A stretch of 64,000 nucleotides of DNA from Sphaerolaimus hirsutus (lineage: Eukaryota > Nematoda > Chromadorea > Monhysterida > Sphaerolaimidae). How positions within the stretch are numbered: position 1 is the first letter of the stretch; every line of letters starts with the position of its first letter. The notes under the pieces were generated by a model. The model had not been told where the DNA came from. It searched no databases and was given only the letters and a program-made list of their open reading frames with translations. The position numbers and the translations under genes are program-made. The DNA is taken from positions 22,285,147-22,349,146 of the forward strand of contig OZ038457.1 of the NCBI GenBank assembly GCA_964036195.1, read 5' to 3'. Of this stretch, positions 9,262 to 63,861 are shown piece by piece.

Positions 9262-12200
9262 ATTGGGGTCGTATTGCAGCATGCCCGTGAGCAACTCGAT
9301 CAGGGACTGGTCCTTGGCGTACTTCGCCGGCAGGATTTCCGTCCAGTTTTTGTGCACGTGCGTGTCGCGCAGAACTTTGGCGATCTGTTTTTGATTGAGG
9401 TAGATGGGTTTGACGTGTTTTTGGGGATATTATGGTGGATTGGCGCTGCGCGCACTGGTCTACTGTTCGTTAATTAAGAAATTTGTAAACTCAAGAATCA
9501 ATTTTAAATGGCATTTGAGTTTACTGGATTAGGTGTTTGCAAACTACAGTAGACGGTGAGTAAAAATAATTCATTCCAGTAAACTCAAATACGTTGAAGC
9601 TCGATTTATGAGTTATTTATACGGTATTTATATATTTTTTCAGGATTTTCCTGGGAGATTTTATCATATTTAAGTGATTTTCTGAGATTTTTATAAATAT
9701 CACAATATATAAAAATATCTCATTCGTATTTTTTGGCTTTTCTCAGGGAAGTCTTATTACAATTACCTTTTTAAGATATTCTCTGACATTTTACTAAAAA
9801 ATATTTTCTCAAAATAACACATTTTTCAATGCAGTCGCTCAAAACCCCCCAGGTAAACCCATATATTCAACCCAAACAAATCTCACTTTACTAGGCCACA
9901 TCTCCCTGGCAGTGGCAGCGAGAGCCGGGTTCAAAGCCCGCAGCTGGGCATCGCTGGGGGTGCCCAGCACGTTCACAATCTGAGTGACCTGGTCGTACCT
10001 GTCGGCGCCCTCGAAGAACACGTGGCCCACCACGAAGCCGGCCAGGGGCAGATTCAATTGGCCCGACACGCCCGACACGCCCGACATGTTGATTGACACT
10101 ATACACTAGTTGACATGGCATCGGGTGTCAACTGGTGCCAGCTGCCAGGCCTCACTCTCCCCTCAGACCCTGTCAAATGTCAAATGTCATGCATATTTTT
10201 GTATCGAAATCTTATGTCAAAATTATGATTTGGATAAAGGAATGCAATAGGATTTGAATACACATAACACTTTAGAGGGTCTTTACTATGAAAATAAACA
10301 CTGTACCGGGCTTCTACATAACACATGGCATTTTACAGGGTTTTTCACATGACCCATGTCATTTTACAGGGTCTTTTACATGACACATGACATTTTACAG
10401 GGTCTTTTACACTTGTATCGCCATCGTGCGGTATCCGGTATCATTAAGGTTCAGGACATTTAATCGGACGGTATGTGAATAATGTCGGAGACAATGTCGG
10501 GCAGTCGGGCAAAAACGTGTCGGGCAAATTGAATTCAGCACCAGGACGCAGGCGCACGACCACACGTCGATTGATAGGCCGTAAAATTCGTTTTCTAGGC
10601 ACAATTCCATCGCGCGATAGTAACGGGTTACCTATAAATTTTGTGTAAAAAGCTGTTTAGAACACGGAAAAGGACCCGAAAAATCGGGTCGAACAGTTTT
10701 GAAGGAGGTTAGGGAATTGAATAGTGGAATTTCAAATTCGTGAGAATTCCGGGGCCAAAAAAGTAAAAATACCCCAAGAAAATGCATTACCAAAAACTAC
10801 ATCTTTGCCACCCAACCCACCTGTAACGTAAAGATGGTAAAAAGTGTCTGAATTTTTTTTCGTAATTTTTGGCTCACGAATTTTTCATAAGAAACTATTT
10901 TTGAGCTTCAAATGTAATTGTTAAATCGTTGTTTTTTCAATTTAAAATAATACTTTATTTCCAAATTTAAGTTCAACAACATTGCCCACCTGATAGGCAC
11001 TAGAGTGCTGCGTAGAATCTCTGATCCACTTGGCATTTCCAAAATCCGCCAATTTGACCACCTAGCGACACTTCCAGACCCTGTAAAACGCCCTGTAAAA
11101 TGTCAAACGTAATGCAAACCGTCAAATGTCATGTAAATTGTCAAAAGTCATGTAAAATGCCCTGTAAAATGTCAAATGTCATGCTAAGTGTCAAATGTCA
11201 TACAAACTGTCAAAATTCAATTAAAATTCCCTGTAAAATGGCAAATGCAGGGCATTTTACATGTTTTTTGACACTTCACATTACACTTGACATTTCACAT
11301 GGCATTTTACAGAGTCTGGAAATGGCACCTGCGTGGCTGGATTGACCAACATGTTCTCGGGCTTGATGTCCCTGTGGCAGATGTTGTACGTGTGCGTGAA
11401 AGCCACCGCCAGCACGAGTTGGTATGACCAAAGTTTGATGATTATTGGATCCATCGGGCGGCCGGAGCGCTGAAGTTCCGACTGAAATGGGGGTGCTTGA
11501 ATGGCGCTGCGCACACTAGTTTACGTCACGTTTACACACAGTGAACCAGATTAGGATACTTTACATGGTCTTTTACATGAAATTTGACCCTTTACAGTGT
11601 CTTTTACATGACACACGACATTTTACAGTGTCTTTTACATGACACCTGAACTTAACAGGTTTTGTACATCTTACAGGCTCGTTTACAGGGTCTGGGACTG
11701 GCCCCAGATGACCATCCCGCGCCCTGTAAACTGCAAATTTACAAATGTCATTCAGTATACTTCAGACAAAGTGTCGAAAGTTTGTAATACTAGTTTATTT
11801 ATTTTCAATGCCATTTCACATGACATGTGACACATTACAAGGTGCGTGACTGCCCCTAGTCCGCAACAAAATTCATTCAAAGAAATGCAAAGATGAGCTC
11901 ACCTCCAAAGAAGAAACAGTCTTTGGCATATAATCGAAAGCCAAATTCCAGCAGCTATTTTTTCCGTCGGGTTTTGTCAAAAAATAGAACAGCAGGCGAC
12001 AGATGTTCGTATGATTCAGGTAGCGATGCTCTCGGATCTGGGACAATTTTTTTCGAATTTCAAATCTGGACAAATTTCATTGACCACGGAACACGGAATG
12101 GCCAGCCGAAATCCGGCAACGTATTTACCGTATTTCCTCGAATTACCCCCCGGGGGAGGGGTATTTTTTCAGAGTGGAAATTTTGAGGGGGGGTTTCGAG

Positions 12201-15200: not shown

Positions 15201-16932
15201 AGTGCCAAAACCTGTCGTTCTATTGGAGGTGCCCTTATACTAGAGTATGCCGTTCTACCGGCGCCAACTTGCCAACTGACCCTAGCATAGTCGATAAAGT
15301 GCGCCTGGTGCGTGGTGGGCGGCTTGGTGCCCTTGGCCATGCGCTGGTGCCGCATCAACTGCGCCTGTCGCCGCCGCAGCCGCTCAGACTCCTCTGGACG
15401 TTGCCGCGATATTTCGCTGCGAATTGGGGGGGGGGGTTAAAAGGGGGTTTTATGGGGGTATTTGATGGGTTTTTTAATATTAAAATTTTTTTCGGAATAC
15501 CTCACTTATATTCACTCACTTATACTCACTCACTTGATTGATCAAGTGTGTAATTGGCATCTGGAACCATTCCCAAACCCTGATCATGCCATGTAAGGTG
15601 TAAAATGCCATGAAAAGTGTGTCAAAAAGTTGTCAAAAAATCCACCAGTAGTTTGACATTTTACAGGCCATCATACATGACTTTTCACACTTTGCATAAC
15701 ATTTTACATTTGACAGCGCATTTTACATTACTTTTGACACTTTGCATGACATTTAACGTTTGACAGGGAATTTCACACGGTTCGGGGAGTGGCAACTGAT
15801 GAGGTATCCTGAAAATTTACCTGTCACTGGTCACTTGACAGGTCATTCGAAAGCTCCTCTTAATTGGACAATTTGGCACTTGACATTCAATGAAATTGTC
15901 ACCTGGCAGGGCTCACGAGAATTTCAAACGCACAACAAAATTGTGTCGCGCAGTTTTTGCGCAACACAAGTTTGTCGCGCAGGTAGTGATGGAATGGCAC
16001 CAGTGTGCTGGCACCATTTGACGCTATGGCGGTATTCCATCACCAGCGTTGTCTCCTGCACAACAAACTTTTGTTGCGCAACAAACTGTGTGACGAAATG
16101 TATGTCGTGCACCAGTGGTGCCATGGCACAACACCCTGGCGCCCTTGAATAGCGTCAGCGCCACGGCGCCATTCCATCACTACCTGCGCGGCAAACTTGT
16201 GTCGCCAAAAACTGCGCGACACAATTTTGTTGTGCGTTGGAACTTATTCGGACCCACCTGGCAGCTCCTCCGGCGGTGCTGCTGGGATGGCTGCCCGTGC
16301 TGCGGATCACGTCCACATTGCAGGACGCTGTCCCAGTTCTGGTGGCAATGTCGCCGCTTGTCAAGTGACAAGTCAAGTGATAAGTGAGTTGCGTGAATCG
16401 CGATGAAAGATGTACGTAATTGAGTGAAAATACCTTGGGACAGTCTAAGGTGTCAAATGTAAAATGTCGATTAAACAAGATTTTTTACCGAACTTTTGAC
16501 ACTTTGCATGAAAATTGACAAATTTTTATCACATTGTGCATGACATTTGACACATTGCCTTACACTTTACACTGACACCTGCACACCAGGAGGCAGTACC
16601 GCACCCTGTAAAGTGCAAAAAGTAAATGTCACGTAAACCGTCAATTAAAATAAAATAGGTACTTAGACTTATTGCTGAACTTTTGACAATTTGAATGACA
16701 TAAACTCATTACTTACCACTTTACCTACCACTTATCACTTTACATATCACTTGACAAAGTGCGGCATTGGCACCCGCGGCTGCCAACATGCGGCTCACTG
16801 GCCCGCCACCGTCTCGATGTCAAATTTGATGTTTGTGCTTTGCTTGCTGTCTCTTTCATATAATCTTTCGACTTGCGTCGTTTCAGCTTTTTCACGGGTG
16901 CCGATTGCCGTTTCAGCTTTTGGCTCGGCTGC
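9262..16932 (-). CDS. divergent GSK3-family Ser/Thr protein kinase (multi-exon, ends incomplete)
   Basis: Predicted cytoplasmic or nuclear protein kinase of the CMGC/GSK3 group. Exons on the minus strand: 16799-16932, 16258-16338, 15281-15416, 12669-12848, 11903-12037, 11329-11481, 10990-11061, 10542-10631, 9887-10042 and about 9262-9411; phases agree throughout, giving 429 codons. The kinase part shows the Gly loop IGNGVFSNVY, VAIKK, HRDIKPEN, DFGNAK, RYYRAMEL, SIDVWSCACVL and VLGTPSDAQLRALNP, in GSK3 order. Before it lie about 130 residues I do not recognise, including RPEESERLRRRQAQLMRHQR and HFIDYAR. Odd points: APE is AME; the priming-pocket Arg of NREL is His (KNHEML); the activation-loop Tyr is kept (SSAYQ). 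Two introns near the 3' end lack an AG acceptor. The extreme N- and C-termini are unresolved. Nematodes carry many such divergent GSK3-like genes, so this need not be the orthologue of GSK-3 itself. Confidence 0.82.
10043..10541 (-). mobile_element. TIR element forming a kinase intron with a non-AG end
   Basis: Minus strand: the exon ending CACVL (..GTCCTG) meets GTGCTGAATTCAATTTGCCC; the far end is the inverse of GGGCAGATTCAATTGGCCC, then CTG, then the next exon (GCCGGC). TIRs extend about 45 bp with GCCCGACA repeats. CTGG flanks both sides. Removing 10043-10541 restores the kinase frame, but the intron would run GT..TG. Confidence 0.65.
11062..11328 (-). mobile_element. MITE that constitutes a whole kinase intron
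   Basis: The intron begins GTGCCATTTCCAGACTCTG and ends in the inverse of GCGACACTTCCAGACCCTG followed by TAG, so its TIRs lie within a few bases of both splice sites. The upstream exon ends CAG and the intron ends TAG, a likely 3-base target duplication with one change. Inside are many repeats of TGTAAAATG/CATTTTACA and TGTCAAA, typical of this family throughout the window. Confidence 0.8.
12126..12562. mobile_element. TACCGTATT/CCTCGAATA-type TIR element in kinase intron
   Basis: Left TACCGTATTTCCTCGAATTA; right end degenerate (GGAAATCCGATAT). The centre resembles 61637-62056 (an ACAGACGTCGAAAAATGCAA-like stretch), so this is a real subfamily with a conserved interior. Confidence 0.72.
13039..13468. 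mobile_element. TACCGTATT/CCTCGAATA-type TIR element in kinase intron
   Basis: Left TACCGTATTACCTCGAAATA; inverted right TACCGTATTACCTCGAATTA. The interior shares CGTGTGTTCTGCATTG and the flanking TCGAGGGGGG blocks with the copies at 12126 and 61637. Confidence 0.8.
13529..15064. repeat. 338-bp tandem satellite, four full units plus a partial fifth
   Basis: Units start near 13529, 13867, 14205, 14543 and 14881 with only a few differences. Each has a long hairpin: GTGCTCCTCTGCA paired with TGCAGAGGAGC, and GAAATCTTT with AAAGATTTTC. The remainder contains CCTCCCCTTGAATAACTCCC. The fifth unit diverges after GAGCTACCAAATAGAAC and matches the dispersed copies near 8.4-9.0 kb. Confidence 0.93.
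15921..16245. mobile_element. 325-bp palindromic element abutting a kinase exon donor
   Basis: Arms of about 85 bp: CGCACAACAAAATTGTGTCG and GCGCAGGTAGTGATGGAATG on the left, mirrored on the right. The right end is within about 12 bp of the donor of the exon at 16258-16338. Confidence 0.75.
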
Positions 16933-18324: not shown

Positions 18325-18493
18325 GGGCCATTCCAGACCCTTTAAAATGTCAAATGTAACGCAATGTGTCAAAAGTCATGTAAAATGCCCTGTAAAATGG
18401 CAAATTGGTTGGCAATTTTCCTGGGCAGGGCATTTAACATGACTTTTGACACTTTGCATGACACTTGATTTTTATAGGATCTGGGACTGGCAC
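18325..18493. mobile_element. MITE of the GTGCCA family between kinase exons
   Basis: Ends GGGCCATTCCAGACCC and GGGACTGGCAC, flanked by ATG on both sides (18322-18324, 18494-18496). Same interior motifs as the other copies. It lies upstream of the placed kinase exons and forms no intron I can demonstrate. Confidence 0.7.
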
Positions 18494-20192: not shown

Positions 20193-23100
20193 TTAGAAAT
20201 CGATGGCGCCGCGGGAAGCAGAGCGGAACATCGCGGAGGCGGATGGCTGCATTTTAAGGATTTGATTAGCTTTGATAGTCAGGATCTTCATACATCCATC
20301 CCCAAAAAAGTATAGTTTTAATGTTAAAATTGGCTTGTGGAGTGACAAATAAATAACCAAAATCCTAAAAAGGTTCAGTCGCTTGGCAATGTCAATTATC
20401 AACCAAAAGTATGCAAAATGAATTTTTAGAGCTGATTATCAATTTGCAACTTTTCCAGGTTTTGGCACCTATCCGGTGACAGGGAATGCCGATCGGCTCA
20501 TGGTGAAAAACACTTGTAAACGTATCGAATTGTTTACCGCTTTTTCAAAAAGGATCCATCCAATGCTACAAAGTTCAAGTACAAACTTCAATTTTTCTCA
20601 AATTCCCTCTCCCCATAAACCATCCCCCCCAAAATGCCCCCCCCTCAAATAAGCCCCCCACCCACAGCGAGGCTAGCCGAGCTCCTGGTCTTGGCCCTGA
20701 TTTTGGTCAAGCTATTCTCAGCCACATCGGCCCTCTCTTCAGCATCCTCGAGCTGGTGCTGGATCTGTCTGTACTTCTGGAGGTTTACGGTAGCCAACTC
20801 TTCAGCCTCCTCGGTCTGGCGCTTGGTCACCTTGACCTTCTGTTGGAGTTTGTCGACCAGGTCTTGCAGGCGGTCGGCGTTCTTCTTGTCTTCGTCGATC
20901 TGGGGGGGGGGGGGGTTATTTGGGGGTTATGGTAGAGATTGTATTTATGTGCTGTATTTCCTTGAATAATTCCCCTGGGGAATTATTTTTGCGTCAGATT
21001 TTTTTTGAGGGCGGCTTTTCAATGGGGGATTAATTGAGCGGGGTTATTCAAGGGGATTATAATTTCGGCAAAATTTCTAAGCATGTTTATATCAACTCAT
21101 TTCATGAGATAAGCTCTATTAACAAAAAGCATGAAATTTTTGTTCAAATTGGACATAACCAGTGGCGTAGCCAGGGGGGGGGGGCGGGGGGGGGGCGGCC
21201 GCCCCCCCCCCTTCCCGGGCCAGACAGAAAAGTTGCCGGGAATAACACTTTTCTATGGCGATTTTATAGGTCGACGGCAAAAATTTTGCGCGCAAGCGCG
21301 CATTTCGCACCTTCAAATTTCTGTCACACTTATTTGCGTCTCAGAGGTGTAAAATACCACTCAAAATTGCTCAATTTTGCACCAATTTTCAGACATTTAG
21401 GTACAATTTTGTTCTATTGTAGCCACTGGCGCCAACGCCAACGCCATGGCGCGGCGCCTACAAATGGCGCCAGCGCCATACGTCCATTCCGCTATCGTTT
21501 TAGGCGAAATTTTAGGGGGGGGCGGCGCCCCCCCCCCGTTCGCCGGCCTCCGTATACAATCCGCCCCCCCCGCTCAAAAATCCTGGCTACGCCACTGGAC
21601 ATAACAAATTGATCGTAAATATGTCTAAAGCGGGATTTATAAAAGGTGAGTACCTAACTATTCAAGCAAGTAGGGTATTTATGGCGTGCTTTTAGAATGT
21701 CGATGCCTAATCCAGATACTGAGTTCGAAATATTCATCACTAACAGAACTCCAACACCATTAAACACATAACCCAAACCAACCCCCAACCCCCCACCCAC
21801 CTGGAACTGCAGTTCCCTGCACCTCCTGTCAGCCTTAGCCAGGTTCTTCTGCGTATCAGTGTGCCTCCTCTGTTCGCCGTCCAGCTCGCCTTCCATCTCC
21901 CTGATGCGCTGCTCGAGCTTGGCGATGACCTTCTTGCCACCCTTGAGGGCAGCCGCCTCGGCCTCGTCCAGGCGGGCTTGCATGTCCTTGACTTGTTGTT
22001 CCAGGCCCTTGCGCATGCGCTCCACGTGCATCGAGTGCTCCTGGGGGGGGGGGTTGAGGGGGTTGAGGGGTGAGGGGGGTTGTTTGTGGGGGGTACTGTT
22101 CCAGTTTGAGAAGGATACCTAGAAATATTTACATGTTCATGGTGAGAAATATTCGAAAAAAAAGAAATTGCAATTATCATATGCGAAAAAGTTTGTTTAG
22201 TTTATTAATACTTTTGTGAATATATTTATTTATTTGTGGGCACATAAACATTTGTTTATCTTTGACTGGAATCTGAATTCTGAAACTTTACTTTCTGAAT
22301 TCTGTCAATTTCGGAAAATCAAAAAAAAACCAGACACTTCACACTTCAAAAACGTCCCCAAAAATAAGCTCCGCCCACAATCTGAACCCACCTGTTCCTG
22401 CCTGAGCTCCTCAGCCAACCTAGCGGCGTCGGCCATGGCCTTCTTGCTGTTCTCGTCGGCGGCCTTGAGCTCGTTCAACGTGTCGTCCAGCTCAGAGTGC
22501 AGCGCCTGCAGCTCCGCCTCCAGCTTGCGGCGGGCGGCCGTCAGCGAGCTGTGGGGGATTTGCGGAGTGTGTAAAGTGGAAATAGTGTGAAAGATGAGAA
22601 CTGTGAAATGTTAAGTGTCAAAAGTCATGTAAAATGCCCTGAAAAATGGCAAACGTATGTTTCCATTTTGCAAGGCATTTTACATGACTTTTAACACTTT
22701 GCATGACATTTTACATTTCACAAGACATTTTACAGGGTCTGTAAATGGCACCTGTTCGCAGCCGAGAGCTCGTTGGCCTGGCCGCGAAGCTCTTCAGCCT
22801 CGTACTCAGCTTGCTTGCGCGCGCGCTCCGCCTGTGAGGTCAATGCTTTTTGGTTGCGGTGTCGGGGATTGGGCAGTTGGAGGTTGGGGAATTGCAAAAT
22901 TATGGCTGGTGCCGAAAAGTTTTCATATATTTTATCTATGTGCATGATATGAGGTCATGAGAAAATGGAATAAAAATATTCACATTTGATAGTTTTTTAT
23001 TACATTTCTCACTGTAGAATGTATAACGCAAATACGTGTTGAGAAATTCATGCTGATACAAAACCTCAACCTTCAACCTCCAAACCACAACCTACATTAT

Positions 23101-35100: not shown

Positions 35101-38100
35101 ATGCTCAATCCAAAAACACTGACCTTCTCAATGAGCTCGATACAGGCGGCCAGATCGAGACCGAAATCGATGAACTCCCAGTGGATGCCCTCGCGCTGGT
35201 ACTCCTCCTGCTCGAGTACGAACATGTGGTGGTTGAAGAACTGCTGCAGTTTCTCGTTCACGAAGTTGATCCACAGCTGCTCGAACGAGTTGAACTGAGG
35301 GGGGAGTGAAGTTGTTGTTTTTATTTAGAATTTTGTGTTTAAAAAAATGGAAAAATGGTTGGTTAATTTGAAAAAACCAACGTCGAAGATCTCGAAACCG
35401 GCGATATCCAGCACACCGATGAAAGAGACACGGGGCAGCTCCTGTGAACGAGTGATAAATTGTGAAAGGATAGATGTTTTACTATTAAGCTTACAAAACA
35501 ATTTTTCATGTACCTATAGGACAAATATGGCTATTCTTCACCCTTGATAAAAAGCACCTTGACACAAAAACTTAAAATGACTGAAAGCAAAAATCACAAA
35601 AATTTCGATTTTTCAGCAAAAATCACCATTTTCCTTTCTCATTGATTATAAATATAAATTTTTGAACAATCATGAATATAAGAAATAACAACGACTTTGT
35701 CTCTGTCCCACACCCACTCTCAAGTGATTCTTAAGAAGTAGTTTTTTAAAAACAAAAACAATTCTGCCCAAACCCCCCAAAGACCCACCTTGGCATCAAG
35801 GGTCACGTTACACTTCTTCACGAGCCATCCGAACAACCTATCATAAATACCCTTGCACATGGCGCCCACGGCCCAGTGCACTTGCTCCTGGTTCTGACCC
35901 TTGTTCACCCACTCGGTGCCGACCTTGACGCGGGGCTTGCACAGCGCCGACAGGAACTTGGTCCCGTCAACGCCGAACTGAGAGCGGGGGGGGGGTGTTA
36001 TTTGAGGGGGTAGGTGGCGTTTGGATTGGAGCCAATTTAGACGCTAGTGGATAACTAGGTATATTTTATGGAAGGGGTAATTGGACAGTCACTTATAATA
36101 TGTTCACTTGTCGCTTGGCTTGTATTACCACTGAAAACGTTCCTCTGAACTTATCACTTTCCTTGTCGCTTGATACTTTCAGTGATGGCATCAGGTGCTA
36201 CTCCCAGACCCTGTAAAATGCTCTGTAAAATGCCAAGTGTCAGCGGAGTGTCAAAAGTCATGTAAAATGGCCCGTAAAATGGCAAACGTTTGTCATTTTA
36301 CACGACACGTCATCGTTTGTCATTCTACATGACTTTTGACACTTTACATGACATTTTAAAATAGAAATTCACATGGTTTTGAAGTGGCACCAGAAATCCC
36401 CATAAATACACCCCCAAGAAAAAAGACCCTCTCCCTCAAACAATCCCCCCTAACCATGTTGGCGACTTTTTGCGCCTCCTCAGTGCCATCCGGCTCGGCC
36501 TGCTCACCGCGCTGCTTGAATTTCATCTCACCCATGTGCAGCAGAGAGGAACACGTTTTGTAAACGTTGATCTTCTCCTCTGGCGAGAACAGCAGGATGT
36601 CGAAGGCTTCCTGTGGGAGTGACGTTTTGGTAACGTTGTTTTTACGTTGTGGGTTACGTCGGAGCAGCTTGTTGTTGCTTTGGGCAAACTTTGCGTTTTA
36701 CTTTTGGGTATCAAATGGGGGGGGGGGTTAGGGCGGGTACTGATTTTTGCGACGTTTAGCGTATTTTCACCTCGAAATAACCACTAGAAATGCTTTTTGG
36801 ATTTTTCACCCCTGGAGACATAATGTGTCTAAAATGGGTCTACATGCGGAATGGGCTTTGATGCGGAATGGGCCCTAGCCGAAATAAATACCTATGTTTT
36901 AAGAACTTATCCCATTGGATGAACGATTTATATCTCAATAAACCCCCGCGAGTTTCTTAACAACGAAAACGCTTGGTTAAACTATTATTGGAACAGCTCA
37001 GGGTACCACGTTTTCTGATATTCTCCCGAACAATCCCCCAGTCTCAAATTACAAATACATTCAACGAACAGCGACACAGTAGATTGAAACGACACACTAC
37101 AAATTGTAGAAACCCCCGGGGGGAAAATAAGTTTCAAATCGCAACCCGAAAACCCCCCAAAACCGACATCCATCATCAAAAACTCCTCCTTATCATCGAC
37201 GCCCGCGATGGTGGTCTCGGCCTGGTTCTGGTACCAATACTCGGTGGGGGGTTTGTCCAGCTCAAGGATACCCTTCAGGTCGGGGTTGCCGCCAGAGTGG
37301 ATCTGGTAGAACACGTGGTAGGCGCGCTCGCCCGGCGCCTGACGGATGACACGGGATTTCTCCAGCAGGTCTGGGGGTGGGGGGGGGGTATTTTGGGGGG
37401 ATATTTGGGGGGTATTGGGGGGGGGGTATTTTGAGGTTCAAGTATTGTACATAGGTATGTTGATATGATAGGTATAAATATTTACCGAGTAGATTCTTGT
37501 TTCGTTCCCCTTGAAAAAATTCCCATAAATAGAAATCTGACGAAAGATAGATTCGCTTATCGGACGGACGTAATTGTCTATTTATCTATTTACGGCACAT
37601 ATACCTACTCGAATATTGTAATTTCTCGAAATACCCCCAGGAGGTTTATTATTTCGCCAGCGAATTATTACGAATCAGATAAATAAATACATCATACGAA
37701 TTTTCAACAAAATTCTCATTTTAGTATGCCGTATTTCCAATGATGGCTCATCTACCGTACTTCTAATAATACCTTTGCATCTATCCATCAAAATGCTCCC
37801 GCCGATAAAATAGCGTGTGAAAAAGGTGCACGCATAATTAGGAGAAACACTTTTTCCACAAAAAAATCAAACTCAAACCCCCCAAAAACCCACAATGCTC
37901 AATGTCGCAGCCGGCAACCTTGCCGGACCTGTCGAAATGGATACGGATGAACTTTCCGAAGCGGGAAGAGTTGTTGTTACGGACGGTTTTTGCATTGCCG
38001 AAAGCCTCCAGCACGGGGTTGGTCTGGACGATCTGGTCCTCTAGGGTGACCTGAAATGGAGGGGGGTGTTTGAGAGAGGTTTTTAGAATGGGAATTGTGA

Positions 38101-46968: not shown

Positions 46969-47660
46969 ATGGCGCTGGCGCCTGGCGTTAGCGCCAAAGC
47001 AAAAAGCGCCATGCGCTTTTGGCGCTTGGCGCTAAAATGCTCTGGCGCCATTGGCGCTTGGCGCCGTGCTTCCGAAAAGCGCCATGGCGCTTTTGGCGCT
47101 TGGCGCTATTCTTCGGTGGCGCCATTGGCGCTTGGCGCTAAAATGCTCTGGCGCCATTGGCGCTTGGCGCCGTGCTTCCGAAAAGCGCCATGGCGCTTTT
47201 GGCGCTTGGCGCTATTCTTCGGTGGCGCCATTGGCGCTTGGCGCTAAAATGCTCTGGCGCCATTGGCGCTTCGCGCCGTGCTTCCGAAAAGCGCCATGGC
47301 GCTTGGCGCTATTCTTCGGTGGCGCCATTGGCGCTTGGCGCTAAAATGCTCTGGCGCCATTGGCGCTTGGCGCCGTGCTTCCGAAAAGCGCCATGGCGCT
47401 TTTGGCGCTTGGCGCTATTCTTCGGTGGCGCCATTGGCGCTTGGCGCTAAAATGCTCTGGCGCCATTGGCGCTTCGCGCCGTGCTTCCGAAAAGCGCCAT
47501 GGCGCTTGGCGCTATTCTTCGGTGGCGCCATTGGCGCTTGGCGCTAAAATGCTCTGGCGCCATTGGCGCTTGGCGCCGTGCTTCCGAAAAGCGCCATGGC
47601 GCTTTTGGCGCTTGGCACTATTCTTCAGTGGCGCCATTGGCGCTTGGCGCTAGCGTTTTT
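46969..47660. repeat. GCGCCA higher-order tandem array (about 106-bp unit)
   Basis: Short GCGCCATTGGCGCTTGGCGC motifs are organised in units repeating every 106 bases (one unit of 97), each containing AAAATGCTCTGG, CGTGCTTCCGAAAAGC and TATTCTTCGGTGG spacers. At least six units with very few differences, so recently amplified or homogenised. Confidence 0.9.
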
Positions 47661-47877
47661 GAAAGCGCCATAAAAGCGCCAGAGAATCAACAATTCTACG
47701 TGATAACTGACAGCGAATTGCGTAAACTCGGTAGCTTTTTAACTACAGACATATTTTTCTCATGACAGTCCAATTGTAAAGTGCCAAATGTCATGTAAAA
47801 TATTCTGTAAAATTTCAAATGCCATGTAAAAAGCACTCTAAAATGTAAAATGTCATGCAAAGTGTCATTTTCATAAG

Positions 47878-48434: not shown

Positions 48435-49929
48435 TGTTTGTCACTGAAAGTACAGTTTACTTGGTTTACCACTTGGCTTACCATGTGAATTTACTTGCCA
48501 ACTTGCCACTTATGATGGTTTTACTTGTTCTCTTGTCAGTGTGGCTCGTCTTTCACACGACTTTTTACATATAACAGGGACTTTGACACTTGACAGGGTC
48601 TTTTACAGTGTCTGGAGCTGCTTCCAGGTGTCATTTCTACCCATATTCTTAAGTAAGAAAGCTTTTTGGCTTTCATTTAGCTATTTTTATGTTTTGGTAC
48701 ATAATAGAAGTCATAGAGAGCGATAAAAAAATTACTGTGTATCGTGTCTGCGTAATTGACAGAAAATCTTATTGGCGCTGGCGCCATTGGCGCTTGGCGC
48801 TATAACCGCCTGGCGCCATTGGCGCTTGGGGCTCATGTCCAGAAAGGCGCCATGGCGCTTTTGGCGCTTGGCGCCATTTTGCTCTGGCGCCATTGGCGCT
48901 TGGCGCCATCGATGCAAAAGCGCCATGGCGCTTTTGGCGCTAGGCGCCAAAAGTCTGGCGCTTTTCACATCACTAGGCGGGGCCCATTCCGCAAGTAAAA
49001 ATGCGACAAGAAATGTGGCAAGTGATACATATTTTATCCCGGGGGTCGATAACGCAAGTGGAGAAGTAAAAAACATATTTTAAGTGTGACGTTTAAAGTG
49101 TAAAGAAAAGTTAGAAGTAAAAAGAAAAGTAAAATTTTAGTTTTCCAGGCTCGTCAGCTATAGGTGAAATTATCACTTGACTTGTCAAATGACAGTTTCC
49201 TTGTCACTTGTCCACTTTACATGTCATCTGTTTACATGCCACTTGTCACCTTTACGCGGCTTACACGGGGGGTCATCTACTGAACATCAATGCCTTCGAA
49301 GCTTATTTATTTTAAATTCTTCTATCAGACAGACATCTGAACCACACTGAATTTTTTTTTAAACTGGATGAAAAACAGCATAAGAATAGTAAATAAATAA
49401 AAGCAGCAAAGTGTGTAAAATAAAACCTGGTGAAGAAAGTACCCGTTTGGTAGAAAAGTTGCAAAATAAGTGGCAAAAAACGGACCAGTATGGTAATGCA
49501 CAATCACCAAAAACACAGAGAAAGGATTCACATGAGATCAACAATTACCACTAAAAACAAATATAAAAGCAATTATTTATAAAAGTTATGATTCACTTCA
49601 AAAGGTTGTCCGCGGTATAATTTTTATTTATTGGTTGCATATTTATTTACCCGCAAACAATCCAGAGATATCCAGATCCCCAGACACTGTAAAATGTCCT
49701 GTAAAGTATCAAAAGTAATGTAGAATTCCCTGTAAAATTTCATGTTTTCTTTTCATTTCACTGAATTTTTGACGTTTTACATCAATTTTGACACTCTTCA
49801 TGACATTTGAAATTTTACACTGCACCAACTACCAAACATTTGAGTGGCACCAATTACCAAATAATTTATGGGTACAGTACGAAAAAGGCGCGTTTTCGCA
49901 TACTTCGCAACTTAAATTCGAAAAAGAAA

Positions 49930-52900
49930 TTAATCAAAATAAATGTAGTCAATCAGCTGTTTGCCAAAGCGATATTTTTCCGCCAATGCTCCGATTTCAC
50001 CCGGGAGCAGTCCCAGACCCTGTAAAATGCCCTATAAAATGTCAAATGTCATGCAAAGTGTCAAAAGTCATGTAAAATGCTCTGCAAAATGGAAAACGTA
50101 CATTTGACATGATGCAGGGCATTTTACATGACTTTTGACACCTTGCATGACATTTGACATTTTAAAGGGCCTTTCACAAGGTCTTGGATTGGCACCCGAC
50201 GTTTCCGCACTGACACAGCTCAAGATGTCAGCTACAACGTCTGCCTGCAGTTTTGCATCATTAAATTGAGTTGACAAATGACTTTGGCAGAACTCCAAGT
50301 TTACAACTTTCAAGGTAATGAAGAGAACAAGGAAATAACTACCTACTTCATATTGAAGCTTCAAACACCGAACTCAAGTTTAAATTTTAAAAGTTTTAAT
50401 CCGATTTGAATAGAGTCAACCACAAAGCCGGTGTCTCAACGACAGCCAGATCGGCGTTGAGAGAAGAGTCGCGGAAATTTAGCCGGAAAACGGAAAATGA
50501 GCCGGAAAAACGGAAATGGAAAAAAATTGAGTGGCCGGAAAACGGAAAAAAAATTCAGCGCCCGGAAAACGGAACGGAAAATTTGACACCCTACTCGCGC
50601 ACAACCCAGGCCTATTCCAAATGTATAACCACCCCGAATGTAGACCTGCACCACATGGAAGCATACCCGCTCCGAAGGTAAGCCCGGCCCGAAGGTAACT
50701 GATGCTACCTGCGGGCAGGGCTTACCTTCGGAGCGGGTATACATTCGGACCGGGTATTCATTCGGGCCGGGTTGGAGATTAGCAGGGGGGCACAACTGGT
50801 GGCGCGTGTGCACCCATTGGCGCGGTGCGGCAAACACAAAGGGCAAATAACAATACAAATGAGGCCCAACAATGCATGGCTCTTTATGTTTTGCGGCCAA
50901 GACCGCAACCGATGTTTGATGTTTGATGCGTGACCCCCCCCCCCCGGTTCAGCATGCGATTCGGTGTCTTTTCGGGCAACATTTGTGCAACATGATCTGC
51001 CGACATTTAATCTGATTGACGTTTTACACAAATGAAACAATGCCTTTCATTGTATCATTTGGGTACTTATTTGCATATACTCTAGCTGGAAATTGGTCCA
51101 CCATTAGACCCCGAAACCAATTTCTGTTTCCCATACTGATTCCGATGATGAGATGAGTTCCGAAAACAGTGTGTTTTTCAGTGTCATGGATTTTATGCTG
51201 CGGCGGCATGATAAAGAAAAACAACAGTGCAACTAACTGCCGGGACAATGGATTACCTATTGATAGATTATAGAGAATGCAGTCACATGCAATTATGAAT
51301 TGTTTGTAGCCAGGGAATCGGTGAGGGGGGCTGGGGAATCGATGACCATCGTGCTCACGTTCACAAATCAATACACCGGTCCGCTAATCTCCAACCCGGC
51401 CCGAATGAATACCCGGTCCGAATGTATACCCGCTCCGAAGGTAATCCCGGCCCGCAGGTAGCATCAGTTACCTTCGGGCCGGGCTTACCTTCGGAGCGGG
51501 TATGCTTCCATGCGGTGCGGGTCTACATTCGGGGCGGGTATACATTCGGAGAGGCACAGGCTCCTCGCGCACCAACCTTGAGATCATGCAGATGGTAGAC
51601 CTCGGCCAAGTTGAGCAGCTGCACCACCTCGGCGCTGTTATACTCGTAGCGCAGCATGTACTCGCCTGCGTGAAAATCCGATCAATGTTGTTGCACATGC
51701 TAGTTTTCTAACGGTTGTCAACTTGAATTGGGTGTTCAATAACTAAGTTGGTTGAACGCATTTTGAGTGTACCAGAAAAAGTTATTTTAAATCATAGCTA
51801 ACTGTAGTTGACAGACACCTCATTCTGGTAAACTGTAATGCGCGTTCAAAGCCGATTTTATATATTACCAATACCGATAGTTATGGTTCAAAGCCGATTT
51901 TACAGTTATAGAAAAATACGATACTGACCTGGTCATTGGAAAAAAAATGTTTTCTGACACCCCATAGTGTAGTAATGAATGGTACCCTAGTACTCGTACC
52001 CCTCTATTGGCGCCAGCGCTATTTTCGCTGCTGCTTTTGCATCACGACTCGGAACACTCTAACACGATGCCAAGTCTGACATCATGGGTGGACGCACCGC
52101 AGTAAATAGCGCGAATGAACTCCCTGACGGCGGGGCTGCCCGCGTCCACGAAGGTGTACTTGCCCTGCGCCAGGTCCGGGAAGCGCCCGCTGTTGCCCGA
52201 CGAACCCTGCCCGTTGAAAATCTGCCCGAACGTGGGCACCCTCACCAAGAGAACCTCTTTGTGAACCTGTGATGTGATCAAGGCTGACCCAAATTTCGAT
52301 CGGGCTCACCAACAGAATTTGTCGCAAAATTCCCTATGCCTGACACTCATCTTGCGTACGAAAACTCCAAATAAATGTACCCGAATATACCCAGACCCCG
52401 CTTATTCGAGAAAGCAAAACTAAGAGTTGTCTGTAAGCTAATAATGCTTGGGCAACAAATACCTCTGGGCAACTGCACTCTGTGGACAACTGAGTGCACA
52501 CAGTGGACAGCGAACACCCCTGGATAACTGCGGTACAGGGGGGGCGAGGTTGGGGGGGGGGGCCCCGCGGGGGTTCAATATAAACGCTTTTCCAACGTAC
52601 AGAATGAAGAAGAGAAAAAATCGCTAAAAAGTAGGTGAAAGATAGGTATATAAGTATATATAGTACACAAATAGCTGACCCTAATAGGGTGACCCTAATC
52701 AGTACCCACAAATGACAAAGATTCTCACCTGGTACTGCTTACCATCATTGGCTTGAAGGATGAAGTTTGTTGTATCGTCAATTTCCAGCCGCAGGAAACG
52801 CTCTTTCCACCACTTTGAGAAGGGCCCACTGATGGGATTCTCATTTTCCTTGATGAATGTTAGTGTGGTAGCCGGCATGAAGTTGGGATACATAGCTGTA

Positions 52901-55900
52901 TCCTGTAACAATGTATTAAATACATTACCATGCAGAAACGTTGATACTTCACACACTGAATGCTTAAACAGGATTTTTTTTAAATATTCAATGTGCACAG
53001 CATTTGGATATACGCGGCGGACATCACAATAAGTATGATAACCTACCATAACCCATCTGAATAATGAACCAAAAATCATAGTTTTTCATCAAAAATTTTC
53101 GATTTTACTATATGGAATTCTAAATTACGAAATTTATCACAAAATTTTTTTTCATTAAATTATGGTAGGTTTTCATACTAGGTGTGCTGATCCCCAGTAT
53201 AAACCCCTGATCACCATAGTTGGCAGCTTTGCTTTTTTTTCATTCAAAAATCGCTACCCCCCGAACCAGGGACGTATCCAGGATTTTTGAGCGGGGGGGG
53301 GCTGCTTGTTTACGGAGGCCGGCGAGGGGGGGGGGGGCTGAGCCCCCCCCCTAAACTTTTACGTACAGAGTGGCGGAATGGCGCCACTAGTAGGCGCAAC
53401 GCCATGGCGCCATTGGCGTTGGCGCCAGCGCCATGGAACGCTGTATATGTATGTAAATATACATACAAATACAGCAAACAGCACATAATTAGGGTTCAAA
53501 CGGGATCCCGATCCCGATCCCGGATCCCGTGAAATTCCGGGATTTAGCAGTCCCGATCCCGATCCCGATCCCGAAACCCCAATCCCGATCCCGATCCCGA
53601 AATCCAAAAATACCAATCCCGATCCCGATCCCGAAAACTTTCAAATCCCGATCCCGAGAATCTCCCAAGTCCGGGATCCCGATCCCGGAAAAAATAGTGA
53701 AAATTATAAAAAGTTAAAAAATGAAATTTTTGCGTGCAAAAATGAGAACGCAAACCCCCAGCGTCCATTTTATGTCACTTTTCTGGCATCCAACAGTGTT
53801 TCGAGACCTTTATGAACAACTGCGAATGCCAGAACAGTGACGAAAATCTCTATCCCTACACCCCAATCCCGATCCCGAAAAATGCCAATCCCGATCCCGA
53901 TCCCGATCCCGTGACCCCAATCCCGGCCAATCCCGATCCCGATCCCGAAATCTCAAAATACCAATCCCGATCCCGATCCCGATCCCGAAACCCCAATCCC
54001 GATCCCGATCCCGAAATCTCAAAAAGTGAATCCCGATCCCGATCCCGAAAAGTCAATCCCGTTTGAACCCTACACATAATTGAGTATATTTATAATGATT
54101 TCGGCCACAGGGAGCAAATCTGCCGATAATACATGATGTCTGGCGAAAAATGCGCGCTTGCGCGCAAAAAATTTTTACGCTGATGTTGAAAAAGTGCCAT
54201 TTTCCGGCCACTTTCTGGTCCCACCCCAGGAGGGGGGGGGGGCTGCAGCCCCCCCCCGCCCCCCCCCCTGGATACGGCCCTGCCCCGAACGTTGGCACTT
54301 AGCCAGAAATTAAAGTATACAAATTATACTTCAAAGTGTCCCTTAGCTTACTCATATGTCACCATTGGCAAAGTTCCAATGTGGGTCATATAAACGGCCC
54401 ACACATTTGTTAATATAATTTTTACCTGATCACCATGGTTGGCAAATCGATCTTTATCGATGCATAACTCTGCCAATCAAGGCGGGATTGTGCCTGAAAT
54501 GCCAGAATTGGTCAGAATTGGCACCCATCCAGCTCTGAGTGCAGTGGCAATGTTTGAATAACTTTTGTAGGGCTACAGTCGTTCTTTTCTGGTGAATGAC
54601 CAAATCAGGCAAAAAATTGTTGGTTNNNNNNNNNNNNNNNNNNNNNNNNNNNNNNNNNNNNNNNNNNNNNNNNNNNNNNNNNNNNNNNNNNNNNNNNNNN
54701 NNNNNNNNNNNNNNNNNNNNNNNNNNNNNNNNNNNNNNNNNNNNNNNNNNNNNNNNNNNNNNNNNNNNNNNNNNNNNNNNNNNNNNNNNNNNNNNNNNNN
54801 NNNNNNNNNNNNNNNNNNNNNNNNNAAATTGCAATATTGCAGGAATAGCAGATCGCTTTAGCTGAAAGCACAAAGCCTTCTGTGCAATGTGTGGCTCTGC
54901 CATGTCTGCTCGAACCTGCTGGCATTTGCAATGAAGCACCAAAGCTCGACAATGGCAAATTTGACATTTGCAAATATGATTGAAATGTTACCCACTGACT
55001 TGTCCCCAACCTGTAGGGCATGCACACACTTGTGTAGCTCCATAGATGTAGCGCGAGCCTTTTCTGCTGCTGAAAAGTCTCAGAATGGTTAAACCAACCA
55101 TTTTTGCCTAATTTGGTCATTCGCCAGAAAAAGAACGACTGTAGCCCTACAAAAGTTATTGAAACTTTGCCACTGCACTCAGAGCCAGATGGGTGCCAAT
55201 TCTGACAAATTCTGGCCTTTGAGGCACGATCCCGCCTAGATTGGCAGAGTTATACATTGATAAAGATCGATTTGCCAACCATGGTGATCAGGCAAAAATT
55301 ATATCAACAAATGTGTGGGCCGTTTATACGACCCACATTGGAACTTTGCCAACGGTGACATATGAGTAAGCTGAGGGACACTTTGAAGTATATTTTGTAT
55401 ACTTCAATTTCTGGCTAAGTGCCAACATTCGGGGGGTAGCGATTTTTGAATGAAAAAAATGCAAAGCTGCCAACTATGGTGATCAGGGGTTTATCATAGA
55501 TGGGTATTCTGGGGAGTTGACCAAATGTGCACAGGGTAACTGCCCCTTGTGCTGTTATATGCAGTGTCAGTAGTAATAATTCTTTCAGTTTGTGTGTTTC
55601 AGAAAAGTTGGGACCTAGGATGTTTTGAATGATATCCACTCCACCCCATCTTATTCAGTCAACACTCAATCCACAAAATACTTGAATGGCATCAAAAGTG
55701 GGCAAGGTATGTGTAAAACAGTGGAAAGACACAAAGGTTTGGTGGACTCCCAGACTCCATTTTGTCTGTGGGTGGACAGTCTCAACTATTTTGCACGGTA
55801 GTGTAGTGTATAACGTTTTGGAATTCCAAATGTATTTAACAAAATTAAGTAGTAATTCAGTTTGAAAATGATGTTGCAAGTTCGGAATCTTTGCACAGAT

Positions 55901-57716: not shown

Positions 57717-57730
57717 GGCACGGCGCCCTG

Positions 57731-58103
57731 GGGCCAGTTCCGCAAGCGGAAAAGTTAAGAGATAAAGGTTAAGAGTTGAGTAAAATGACAAATGGCAAGT
57801 TAAGAGTAAAGTTAAATGATAAATGATGAGTTAAGAGACAAGAGTAAAGTATTATCTTATTTTTCAACATAAGATTTGGATACAAAAGCGTAAGATTTGG
57901 ATACGAAAAAATAAGATTTGGATACACTTGCTTGACTATTAACTTTACTATTATCTCTTAACTAATCATTTGTCATTTAACTTTACTCTTGTCTCTTGAC
58001 TCATCATTTATCATTTAACTTTACTCTTAACTTGCCATTTGTCATTTTACTCAACTCTTAACTTTTCACTCGTAACTTTTCCACTTGCGGAACTGGCACC
58101 AGA
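57731..58103. mobile_element. GCCAGTTCCGCAA MITE, intergenic
   Basis: GGGGCCAGTTCCGCAAG on the left and CTTGCGGAACTGGCACC on the right; GAGTTAAGAG/CTCTTAACT arms with an AAGATTTGGATACA centre. Confidence 0.75.
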
Positions 58104-62205: not shown

Positions 62206-63614
62206 TTAGCGTCGAAGTTTATTTTTCGGCGGTTGACTTTCACCAGCGGACACGTTGATAGGGATTTTCTTCAACATGCATTCAATCAGCTGTTTGCCAA
62301 AGCGATATTTTTCCGCCAATGCGCCAATATCATCGGACGTTTCAGCACTGACACAGGTCAACATGTCAGCGACGATGTCCGCCTGCAGTTTTGCGGAAAT
62401 CAACTTGGTAACAAACAAACGTGATAACAAATGGTGGGTGGAGATCATGGCAGAAATGGTATAACACTGCTCAACCATTTGCCAGGGGTAGGAAAGGGGT
62501 GTGGGGGGGGGGGTTACCCCCCCCCCCCCAAAGCGCCAAGCTATCTATCCCGGAGGCTACTATTTTGGGCTACTATCCCCTAAACCCCCCCCCCTAAAAA
62601 AAAAATCAGCCAGCTATCTACCTATCTGGAGCGATTTTTGAGAAACACTACCCCAATTTTCGCTCAAGATCGCTATTTTTCATACCTTGTATAGATTTTC
62701 ACCTCCAAAATCACTAGTTCATGCACCTAACTGTATTTTTTCAGCTATTTTTAGTACTATATGTACTTATATACCCATTTTTCACCTACTTTTAGCGATT
62801 TTTCTCCCTTTTTCTTCCTTCTATGCCTATATATTGAACCCCCGCGAACCCCCCCCCCCAGAAAAATTTCCAGCTATCCATCTCTCCGGAGGAAGGATTT
62901 GCTATCTATCCAACCCCCTGGAGGGTCGAAATCTAGAAGACCACTGCCATTTGCAAATGCAAAAAACGCACGATCCCAAATTCTCGCATCACCCATCTGC
63001 ACCAACCTTGAGCTGTTGCAGATGGTAGACCTCAGCCAAGTTGAGCAGCTGCACCACCTCGGCGCTGTTGTCCGCGTAGCGCAGCATGTACTCGCCTGCG
63101 CGAAAATCTACTGTAGTCTATTACTCAATTGTTCACTGATAGTTAACCACCGTATATTCTTGAATGCTCCCCCAACGTTACACCAAATTTGGTGTTGATT
63201 TCCAGAATTGTAAACCTTTTTACTAGTACTGTCTATTTACCGCACTTTTTTCAAAGTATACAAAAACATAAAGTATTTATTTTTTACTCACCACCTGAGC
63301 ACAGAACGATTGGCAAAATTGTCTACTTTTACTCATGATGAATAAACATGTGTAAACGAAACCTAGTAAATAAATAAGGACTAATTACTGTTCCACCAAC
63401 TGACTAAAACTGATTTGAAAAAGCATGCGGCAACCGTAAACAGACCGCAGTAAATGGCGCGAATGAATTCCCTCACGGCGGGGCTGCCCGTGTCCACGAA
63501 GGTGTACTTGCCCTGCGCCAGGTCCGGGAAGCGCCCACTGTTGCCCGACGAACCCTGCCCGCTGAAAATCTGCCCGAATGTGGGCACCCGCAGCACCAGG
63601 GCCTCCCTGTGAAC
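62206..63614 (-). CDS. BTB/POZ-domain protein, gene 2 (3' part; continues past right edge)
   Basis: Exons in the window: 63446-63614 (VHREALVLRVPTFGQIF.. to AIYC), 63007-63095 (EYMLRYADNSAEVVQLLNLA..), 62206-62382 (ADIVADMLTCVSAETSDDIG.. stop after KNKLRR). The first two have exactly the lengths (169 and 89 nt) and phases of gene 1 exons 3 and 4. The last exon is uninterrupted across the site where gene 1 carries a MITE, and its C-terminus (ECMLKKIPINVS...) is longer than and different from gene 1 (DYIYFD). Upstream exons for the N-terminal region must lie beyond 64000. The role is as for gene 1. Confidence 0.8.
62470..62970. repeat. C-homopolymer and CAGCTATCTATC repeat in BTB gene 2 intron
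   Basis: Poly-G/poly-C hairpin, then GCTATCTATCC(C)GGAG motifs repeated several times. The same motif family is at 39200-39320 and 63870-63990. Probably one more non-autonomous element family. Confidence 0.6.
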
Positions 63615-63624
63615 CTGCAGTGAA

Positions 63625-63861
63625 CCCCTTTGGCCAATCCCGCAAAATGAGAAGTGAGACGTGAAATGGCAAAGGCGAAGTAAAAGCGCAAAGGCGAGGT
63701 GAATTGGCAAGTGAAACGGCAAAAGCGAAGAGAAATTACTTTTTATTCATATTTTTTTACTTCGCTTTTGTCAATTCACTTGCCGTTTCACTTCACCTTT
63801 GCGCTTTTACTTCGCCTTTGCCATTTCATCTCTCACTTCTCATTTTGCGGAACTGGCACCA
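63625..63861. mobile_element. GCCAGTTCCGCAA MITE next to a BTB gene 2 exon
   Basis: TTGGCCAATCCCGCAAAATG on the left and CATTTTGCGGAACTGGCACC on the right; near-palindromic GCGAAGTAAAAGCG arms. Its left end is about 10 bp from the acceptor of exon 63446-63614, so it fills the 3' end of that intron. Confidence 0.75.

Follow-up and report, generated by a model that had tools for sequence, protein, structure and literature searches.

Our analysis suggests that a nematode-like animal has an Introner family made up of palindromic, non-autonomous DNA transposons, with a CWG-like target duplication of 3 bp; one copy interrupts a BTB gene. On the sequence of a single 64-kb window (the whole stretch of DNA analysed, 64,000 nucleotides) we put the probability of this reading at roughly two in three. 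One terminus of the element, usually reading GTGCCA inward, would bring a 5′ splice site to an exon entered in that orientation, and the second copy of the target triplet would serve as the 3′ splice site. A sense-strand CAG target would thus yield CAG/GTGCCA...CAG/ (slashes mark exon borders), a GT-AG intron that can be removed without altering the protein; TAG as the repeat copy would also supply the AG, and CGG would supply none. The sources of intron gain in animals are poorly documented. If the proposal is true, the family would be a rare example of an intron-creating animal transposon, and whether a copy succeeds or fails would depend on the second base of its 3-bp target; the birth of introns could then be tested in a single genome, one copy at a time.

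The copy flagged by the first-pass annotation lies in one of two tandem BTB genes on the minus strand, which have three predicted exons (A, B and C) in common and predicted GT-AG introns A-B and B-C at identical positions.

52098..52266, minus strand: BTB gene 1 exon A (predicted)
51577..51665, minus strand: BTB gene 1 exon B (predicted)
50196..50244, minus strand: first part of BTB gene 1 exon C, upstream of the insertion, including the 5′ repeat copy
49930..50003, minus strand: second part of BTB gene 1 exon C, downstream of the insertion, up to the stop codon
63446..63614, minus strand: BTB gene 2 exon A (predicted)
63007..63095, minus strand: BTB gene 2 exon B (predicted)
62206..62382, minus strand: exon C of BTB gene 2, intact at the site that corresponds to the gene 1 insertion

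The joined exons A-C of gene 2 matched the Pfam BTB domain just above the cut-off (E 2.6e-4, 21.6 bits; cut-off 20.5), and Pfam on read-through frames missed the single BTB exons. A protein search returned 22 candidates, none at E <= 0.001, and the best match of the joined BTB peptide to solved structures (E 0.35) was not a BTB. Other features recorded around these genes were GGCGC-rich tandem repeats (46988-47702 and 48756-48958), a ~935-bp element (50616-51550) within the B-C intron of BTB gene 1 with inverted arms of 168 nt that are 96% complementary, and a run of 200 Ns (54626-54825) between the arms (54283-54588 and 55129-55434) of a large inverted repeat.

Exon C of gene 2 (62382-62206, minus strand) is continuous over ADIVADMLTCVSAETSDDIGALAEKYRFGKQLI..., as had been claimed, and exon C of gene 1 reads ADVVADILSCVSAETS, then the insert, then GEIGALAEKYRFGKQLI.

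50004..50195, minus strand: palindromic MITE, 192 bp, within exon C of BTB gene 1
50196..50198, minus strand: target-site duplication, 5′ copy, CGG in gene sense
50001..50003, minus strand: target-site duplication, 3′ copy, CGG in gene sense, at the place where an AG acceptor is needed

The ends of the element were set by the family terminal motif, 9 nt before CCAGACCCTGTAAAATG. In gene sense the element starts GTGCCAATCC and ends GGGACTGCTCC, beginning with GT and ending in GG, with the junctions GAAACGTCGG/GTGCCAATCC and GGGACTGCTCC/CGGGTGAAATC; the GG at the far boundary had been read correctly in the first pass. What had been described as a TIR element of ~191 bp is a TIR element, with a length of 192 bp by the terminal motif. 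The flanking repeat was found to be 3 bp, CCG on the plus strand and CGG in gene sense, and not the CGGG reported earlier; CGGG and CGGGTG were both rejected as the true duplication, because the element itself starts GTG and this accounts for the longer apparent match. The two halves of the palindrome, 50008-50099 and 50100-50191, abut (0 nt between them) and show 86% complementarity, and the RNA fold of 50001-50195 reached -119.6 kcal/mol (z -17.3), a stability equalled by 0 of 200 shuffles. Although removal of the insert does restore the frame, as stated previously, this is uninformative: the element plus one repeat measures 195 bp, a multiple of three, so that frame restoration is automatic and what matters is the internal stop. 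In unspliced BTB gene 1 the first in-frame stop falls within the element at 50068-50070, where the earlier reading had put it.

The paralogues differ at 39 of 369 aligned bases (dN 0.08, dS 0.25), and the insertion target itself differs between them (ACGTCGGGTGAAATC in gene 1 rejoined, ACGTCCGATGATATT in gene 2); gene 2 is therefore an approximate empty site. The 'direct before/after picture' seen in the first pass holds as a comparison of an insertion with an uninterrupted paralogue, but gene 2 is not an allele. DNA homology between gene 1 exon C and gene 2 stops at 49943. The analysis supports the view that a transposon with TIRs entered the coding exon of BTB gene 1, bringing a GT with it, after the paralogues had separated. 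That gene 2 instead lost an old intron which gene 1 retained is very improbable, and we rejected it: its sole support is that the paralogues differ at the site, whereas the inserted sequence belongs to a mobile family, several other members of which have target repeats of their own in the window, it ends in GG, and both BTB genes have kept the predicted introns A-B and B-C.

An insertion of this kind is by itself no evidence that BTB gene 1 is spliced. The GG-ended copy is most likely a failed intron that is not spliced out, since its CGG target gives a GT at the start but no AG at the boundary; if the boundary GG is unused, the product of BTB gene 1 would be truncated or spliced otherwise. 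The first-pass annotation had allowed only for a newly broken or a non-canonically spliced gene, but canonical in-frame GT-AG splices are also possible. A survey of in-frame GT-AG or GC-AG products of BTB gene 1 listed 20, and the donor scored above 0 in two of them and below 0 in the other 18. The first of the two runs from the element's terminal GT to an exonic AG lying 12 nt downstream (donor 0.5; excision of 207 nt, with loss of GEIG), and the second from a GT inside the element (CAAG/GTGTCA) to the same exonic AG (153 nt removed, donor 5.5), with part of the element translated into protein. Rescue of BTB gene 1 by one of these splices would keep the reading frame, would use the only positive donors of the 20 and would fit the paralogue dN/dS of ~0.3; we nevertheless consider it unlikely, because the acceptor common to both products (CGGAG/CATTGG) scored -14.4, against a minimum of 6.3 among 26 acceptors, and three AGs inside the element scored better (-1.0, -4.7 and -6.0). 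The reference donors and acceptors were read by hand from a subset of the junctions of the myosin gene described below.

Sequence related to this insertion was found by BLAST (E <= 0.01) in ~20 separate regions of the 64-kb window, the BTB gene 1 copy included. A 26-base terminal motif, derived from the same window copies, occurred 5 times in the window with <=3 mismatches and in none of 100 shuffles. Target repeats were analysed in the nine copies with both ends recognisable. Exact 3-bp repeats flank 5/9 of them (plus strand): CCG in BTB gene 1, CAG in a long myosin intron, CTG in a short myosin intron (CAG in gene sense), CTG at 15.6k and ATG at 18.3k. Three of the nine are thus CWG and two are other triplets (CCG and ATG). 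Two further copies have repeats with a one-base mismatch (CTA and CTG in a kinase gene, CAG and CCG at 16.6k), and no repeat was seen at the two copies at 18.7k and 26.2k. In a control that shifted the two boundaries together by 1 to 6 bases, exact repeats fell to 0/9 at ten shifts and 1/9 at two; because the flanks were known before the ends were chosen, this control carries more weight than the raw repeat count. At a shift of 5, 17/27 bases matched, near the unshifted 19/27, owing to an inner CAG/CTG in the family terminus. Among the 18 ends, the terminal triplet was GTG nine times and GGG three times, with six others once each. All three coding insertions, the only coding cases in the window, have the GTGCCA end upstream.

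36195..36390, plus strand: family copy in the longer myosin intron, exact repeat CAG on both sides
15564..15795, plus strand: family copy, exact repeat CTG on both sides, no surrounding gene recognised
18325..18493, plus strand: family copy, exact repeat ATG on both sides, no surrounding gene recognised

A tRNA-Pro prediction (36370-36459) overlaps the end of the first of these and reaches a myosin exon; it is probably spurious. A blind search for GT...AC palindromes with 3-bp repeats gave results too noisy to be informative. Palindromes with related termini (GGGCCAGTTCC, GGTGCCAGTTCC or GGCCAATCC) were recorded at 34451-34702, 57728-58102 and 63633-63857, the first two flanked by CTG at one end and by CAG at the opposite end, and the third ~20 bp upstream of the acceptor of exon A in BTB gene 2. 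MITEs have no genes of their own. No transposase was among the Pfam matches in the read-through frames scanned, which covered 0-20, 41.5-50 and 54-64 kb of the plus strand and 0-20 and 41.5-60 kb of the minus strand, and the only further gene found in that scope was the kinase. Exact 20- and 25-base pieces of the element had no matches in viral and prokaryote contigs.

In the kinase gene an element and a predicted intron coincide. On the minus strand, Pfam matched a protein kinase near 11.4 kb (E 9.8e-8) and, below the cut-off, near 10.6 kb, and the best match of the joined pieces was GSK3 (GSK3-beta, 7sxh_A and others, E 1e-24).

11329..11481, minus strand: kinase exon before the predicted intron, ending ...PENMLVNPATQ (ACGCAG)
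11062..11328, minus strand: predicted kinase intron, consisting of a related MITE (11065-11328) and the 3′ repeat copy TAG (11062-11064)
10990..11061, minus strand: kinase exon after the predicted intron, VVKLADFGNAKWIRDSTQHSSAYQ

The exon end ...KPENMLVNPATQ is followed directly by the family terminus GTGCCATTTCCAGACTCTGTAAAATG, and the other end of the element, GTCTGGAAGTGTCGC, is followed by TAG and then by GTGGTCAAATTGGCGGATTTTG (VVKLADFG), so that the junctions read CAG/GTGCCATTTCC...TAG/GTGGTC and both ends of the insertion coincide with exon ends. The predicted intron of 267 nt is the element and one repeat copy, and nothing more. The element resembles the BTB copy at both ends, in a gapped alignment (264 vs 191 nt). 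If retained, it brings a stop after 45 nt; with the element excised, PENMLVNPATQ/VVKLADFG aligned to GSK3-beta with no gap at the junction and one single-residue gap further on. Five kinase exons annotated manually from 12.8 to 10.5 kb have open frames, and wherever an inner end could be assigned it carries GT or AG; no donor was assigned to the last exon. The hairpin of the kinase copy is paired to its base, and the proposed acceptor (GTGTCGCTAG) scored -14.7, against the same myosin minimum of 6.3. AGs 31 and 19 nt upstream had better scores (-2.7 and -8.6) and would shift the frame, and use of the AG 9 nt upstream would add an in-frame stop. Given the poor acceptor and the better-scoring upstream AGs, the kinase copy might be an unspliced lesion. 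Two side observations belong to this part of the window: the GSK3-like kinase (10539-12875) has AME at the position of APE, the usual kinase motif there, and U5 spliceosomal RNA gave seven matches between 8415 and 14982 (86.9-91 bits), several of them in a 338-bp tandem array.

The other candidate lies in a muscle myosin heavy chain gene on the minus strand, ~20.6-41.5 kb, which also bears on the identity of the host. In a FastTree phylogeny the sister group of the window's myosin comprised 30 proteins, 27 of them from named nematodes and 3 unnamed, and both were nested in a larger nematode group. The tree held the window's myosin and 85 of 120 myosins listed by a word-based search limited to 8000 candidates, shorter ones and near-identical isoforms having been dropped. 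This position puts the host within the nematodes or adjacent to them, and we write 'nematode or close relative' because no nematomorph, priapulid or tardigrade was named among the matches listed. The closest of the 120 was 67% identical to the window's, with no close relative among the matches listed.

22549..22751, minus strand: myosin intron number 26, 203 nt, beginning exactly at the MITE terminus

This intron begins CAG/GTGCCATTTACAGACCCTGTAAAATG and ends CAG/. Its 5′ end scored 48.5 against the terminal motif, and the next best of the 25 introns tested scored 14 (25 of ~31 in the gene model, whose exon bounds are approximate in places). Most of the intron could be aligned to the BTB copy, and the match of its 3′ part to a 185-nt shortened BTB element beat 300/300 shuffles in gene orientation and 295/300 in the other. 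The last 49 nt before the CAG are weakly MITE-like. Their local score against the reverse complement of the intron's own first 30 nt was reached in 0/2000 shuffles, and those against four other termini in 29, 5, 147 and 86 of 2000; with the tail anchored at its end, the scores against five termini were reached in 9, 20, 7, 937 and 22 of 2000, and 1 of 24 control tails scored above the myosin tail. These comparisons give moderate confidence that the tail is a decayed element end. Because introns commonly end in CAG, the CAG here argues only weakly for a target repeat.

The predicted splice CAG/GT...CAG/ restores a 16-residue stretch with the same length as in the printed nematode and insect myosins. 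The myosin acceptor scored 10.3, within the range of the 26 other hand-read acceptors of the gene (6.3 to 19.2); the nearest upstream AG is 52 nt away and the base of the hairpin is open. The donor CAG/GTGCCA was the second lowest of 17, itself included, in a set from which 7 of 24 hand-read junctions had been dropped as ambiguous.

Removal of the element restored coding sequence in all three genes, as seen in the ungapped GSK3 junction, the myosin length and the continuous BTB paralogue. We infer that the elements in the two conserved genes, kinase and myosin, are spliced, and that the myosin intron was created, rather than remodelled, by its element; both introns would have been born by insertion at targets whose second copy carries an AG. 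The three copies can be arranged as putative stages: the BTB copy with an intact hairpin and no AG, the kinase copy with an AG, a paired hairpin and a poor acceptor, and the myosin copy with an open hairpin base and an acceptor of 10.3. Such an order, itself conjectural, leaves room for an unspliced kinase copy.

A rival account would be ordinary MITE damage with no special link to splicing: BTB gene 1 and the kinase gene would have been broken by exonic insertions, and the position of the myosin copy, at the beginning of an older intron whose donor it replaced, would be coincidental. It agrees with the poor kinase and BTB acceptors, with the other family copies in the myosin gene, which lie in the interior of longer, ordinary introns, and with the absence from BTB gene 1 of the C-terminal tail of gene 2. 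We regard it as unlikely, however, for the kinase copy fills its predicted intron exactly, leaves TAG and restores GSK3 ungapped at the junction; the five hand-read kinase exons have open frames and GT or AG at each inner end that could be assigned; and the myosin copy begins at base 1 of the intron. Within the preferred Introner reading, a fuller version can be formulated, for and against which we see about equal odds: the CWG preference of a nematode Introner would supply the acceptor, CAG insertions in the right orientation would be born as exact GT-AG introns and insertions at other triplets would be mutations, and the window would show a failed (BTB gene 1), a young (kinase) and a matured (myosin) stage. 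The flagged BTB copy is probably a failure, and the main interest lies in the kinase and myosin copies as hypothetical introns.

Several known systems invite comparison. MITE-derived introns of Micromonas and Aureococcus, reportedly described by Huff et al. in 2016, are said to take one splice site from the element and the other from the target repeat; a TIR transposon is likewise involved, but the hosts are algae and the repeat lengths are different. Henriet et al. are said to have reported in 2019 that transposons became introns in the tunicate Fritillaria, with splice sites that are non-canonical by the title of that report, whereas the two candidate introns here are GT-AG.

By its target duplication the window family recalls the NuwaI transposons of the PHIS superfamily, which are described as having a 3-bp CWG target-site duplication, TIRs that usually begin GGG, autonomous relatives encoding a DDE transposase and a Myb/SANT protein, and an occurrence known only from animals, with no nematodes among the hosts listed in the portions of the paper cited here (PMC4482050). 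In the window, 3/9 copies have a CWG duplication and 2/9 an exact CCG or ATG, and the ends start with GGG in 3/18 cases and with GTG in 9/18, against the usual GGG of NuwaI. We did not assign the family to NuwaI, because its TIR starts are mostly not GGG.

A survey of intron gain in nematodes, in the sections drawn on here, mentions Introners as a source known elsewhere and weighs reasons why sources of new introns escape detection (PMC9169325); no report of nematode Introners came up in our searches of open-licence PubMed Central papers. Another proposed animal case, in a bdelloid rotifer (PMC10597677), is one Introner-like intron of 940 bp in a transferred gene, assigned to an RNA-propagated kind, and the sections drawn on make no mention of a TIR transposon. 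Introners in the sense of Gozashti et al. 2022 (PMC9860276) are described, in the parts cited, as non-autonomous DNA transposons that form introns in coding sequence. Of the 835 genomes of animals and land plants surveyed there, just two groups, both of them animal, were reported to have Introners, and neither 'nematode' nor 'Harbinger' appears in the main text. Introners as described there have TIRs, a target repeat and intron formation in coding sequence in common with what is proposed for the window family. A parallel in splice-site use given there is the Chrysochromulina Introner (Fig. 2C legend, PMC9860276): the element brings its own 5′ splice site and the 3′ one is co-opted, as we propose for the window family. 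The Chrysochromulina element lacks TIRs and its repeat is 4 bp long, whereas the window family has long TIRs and a 3-bp, CWG-like repeat.
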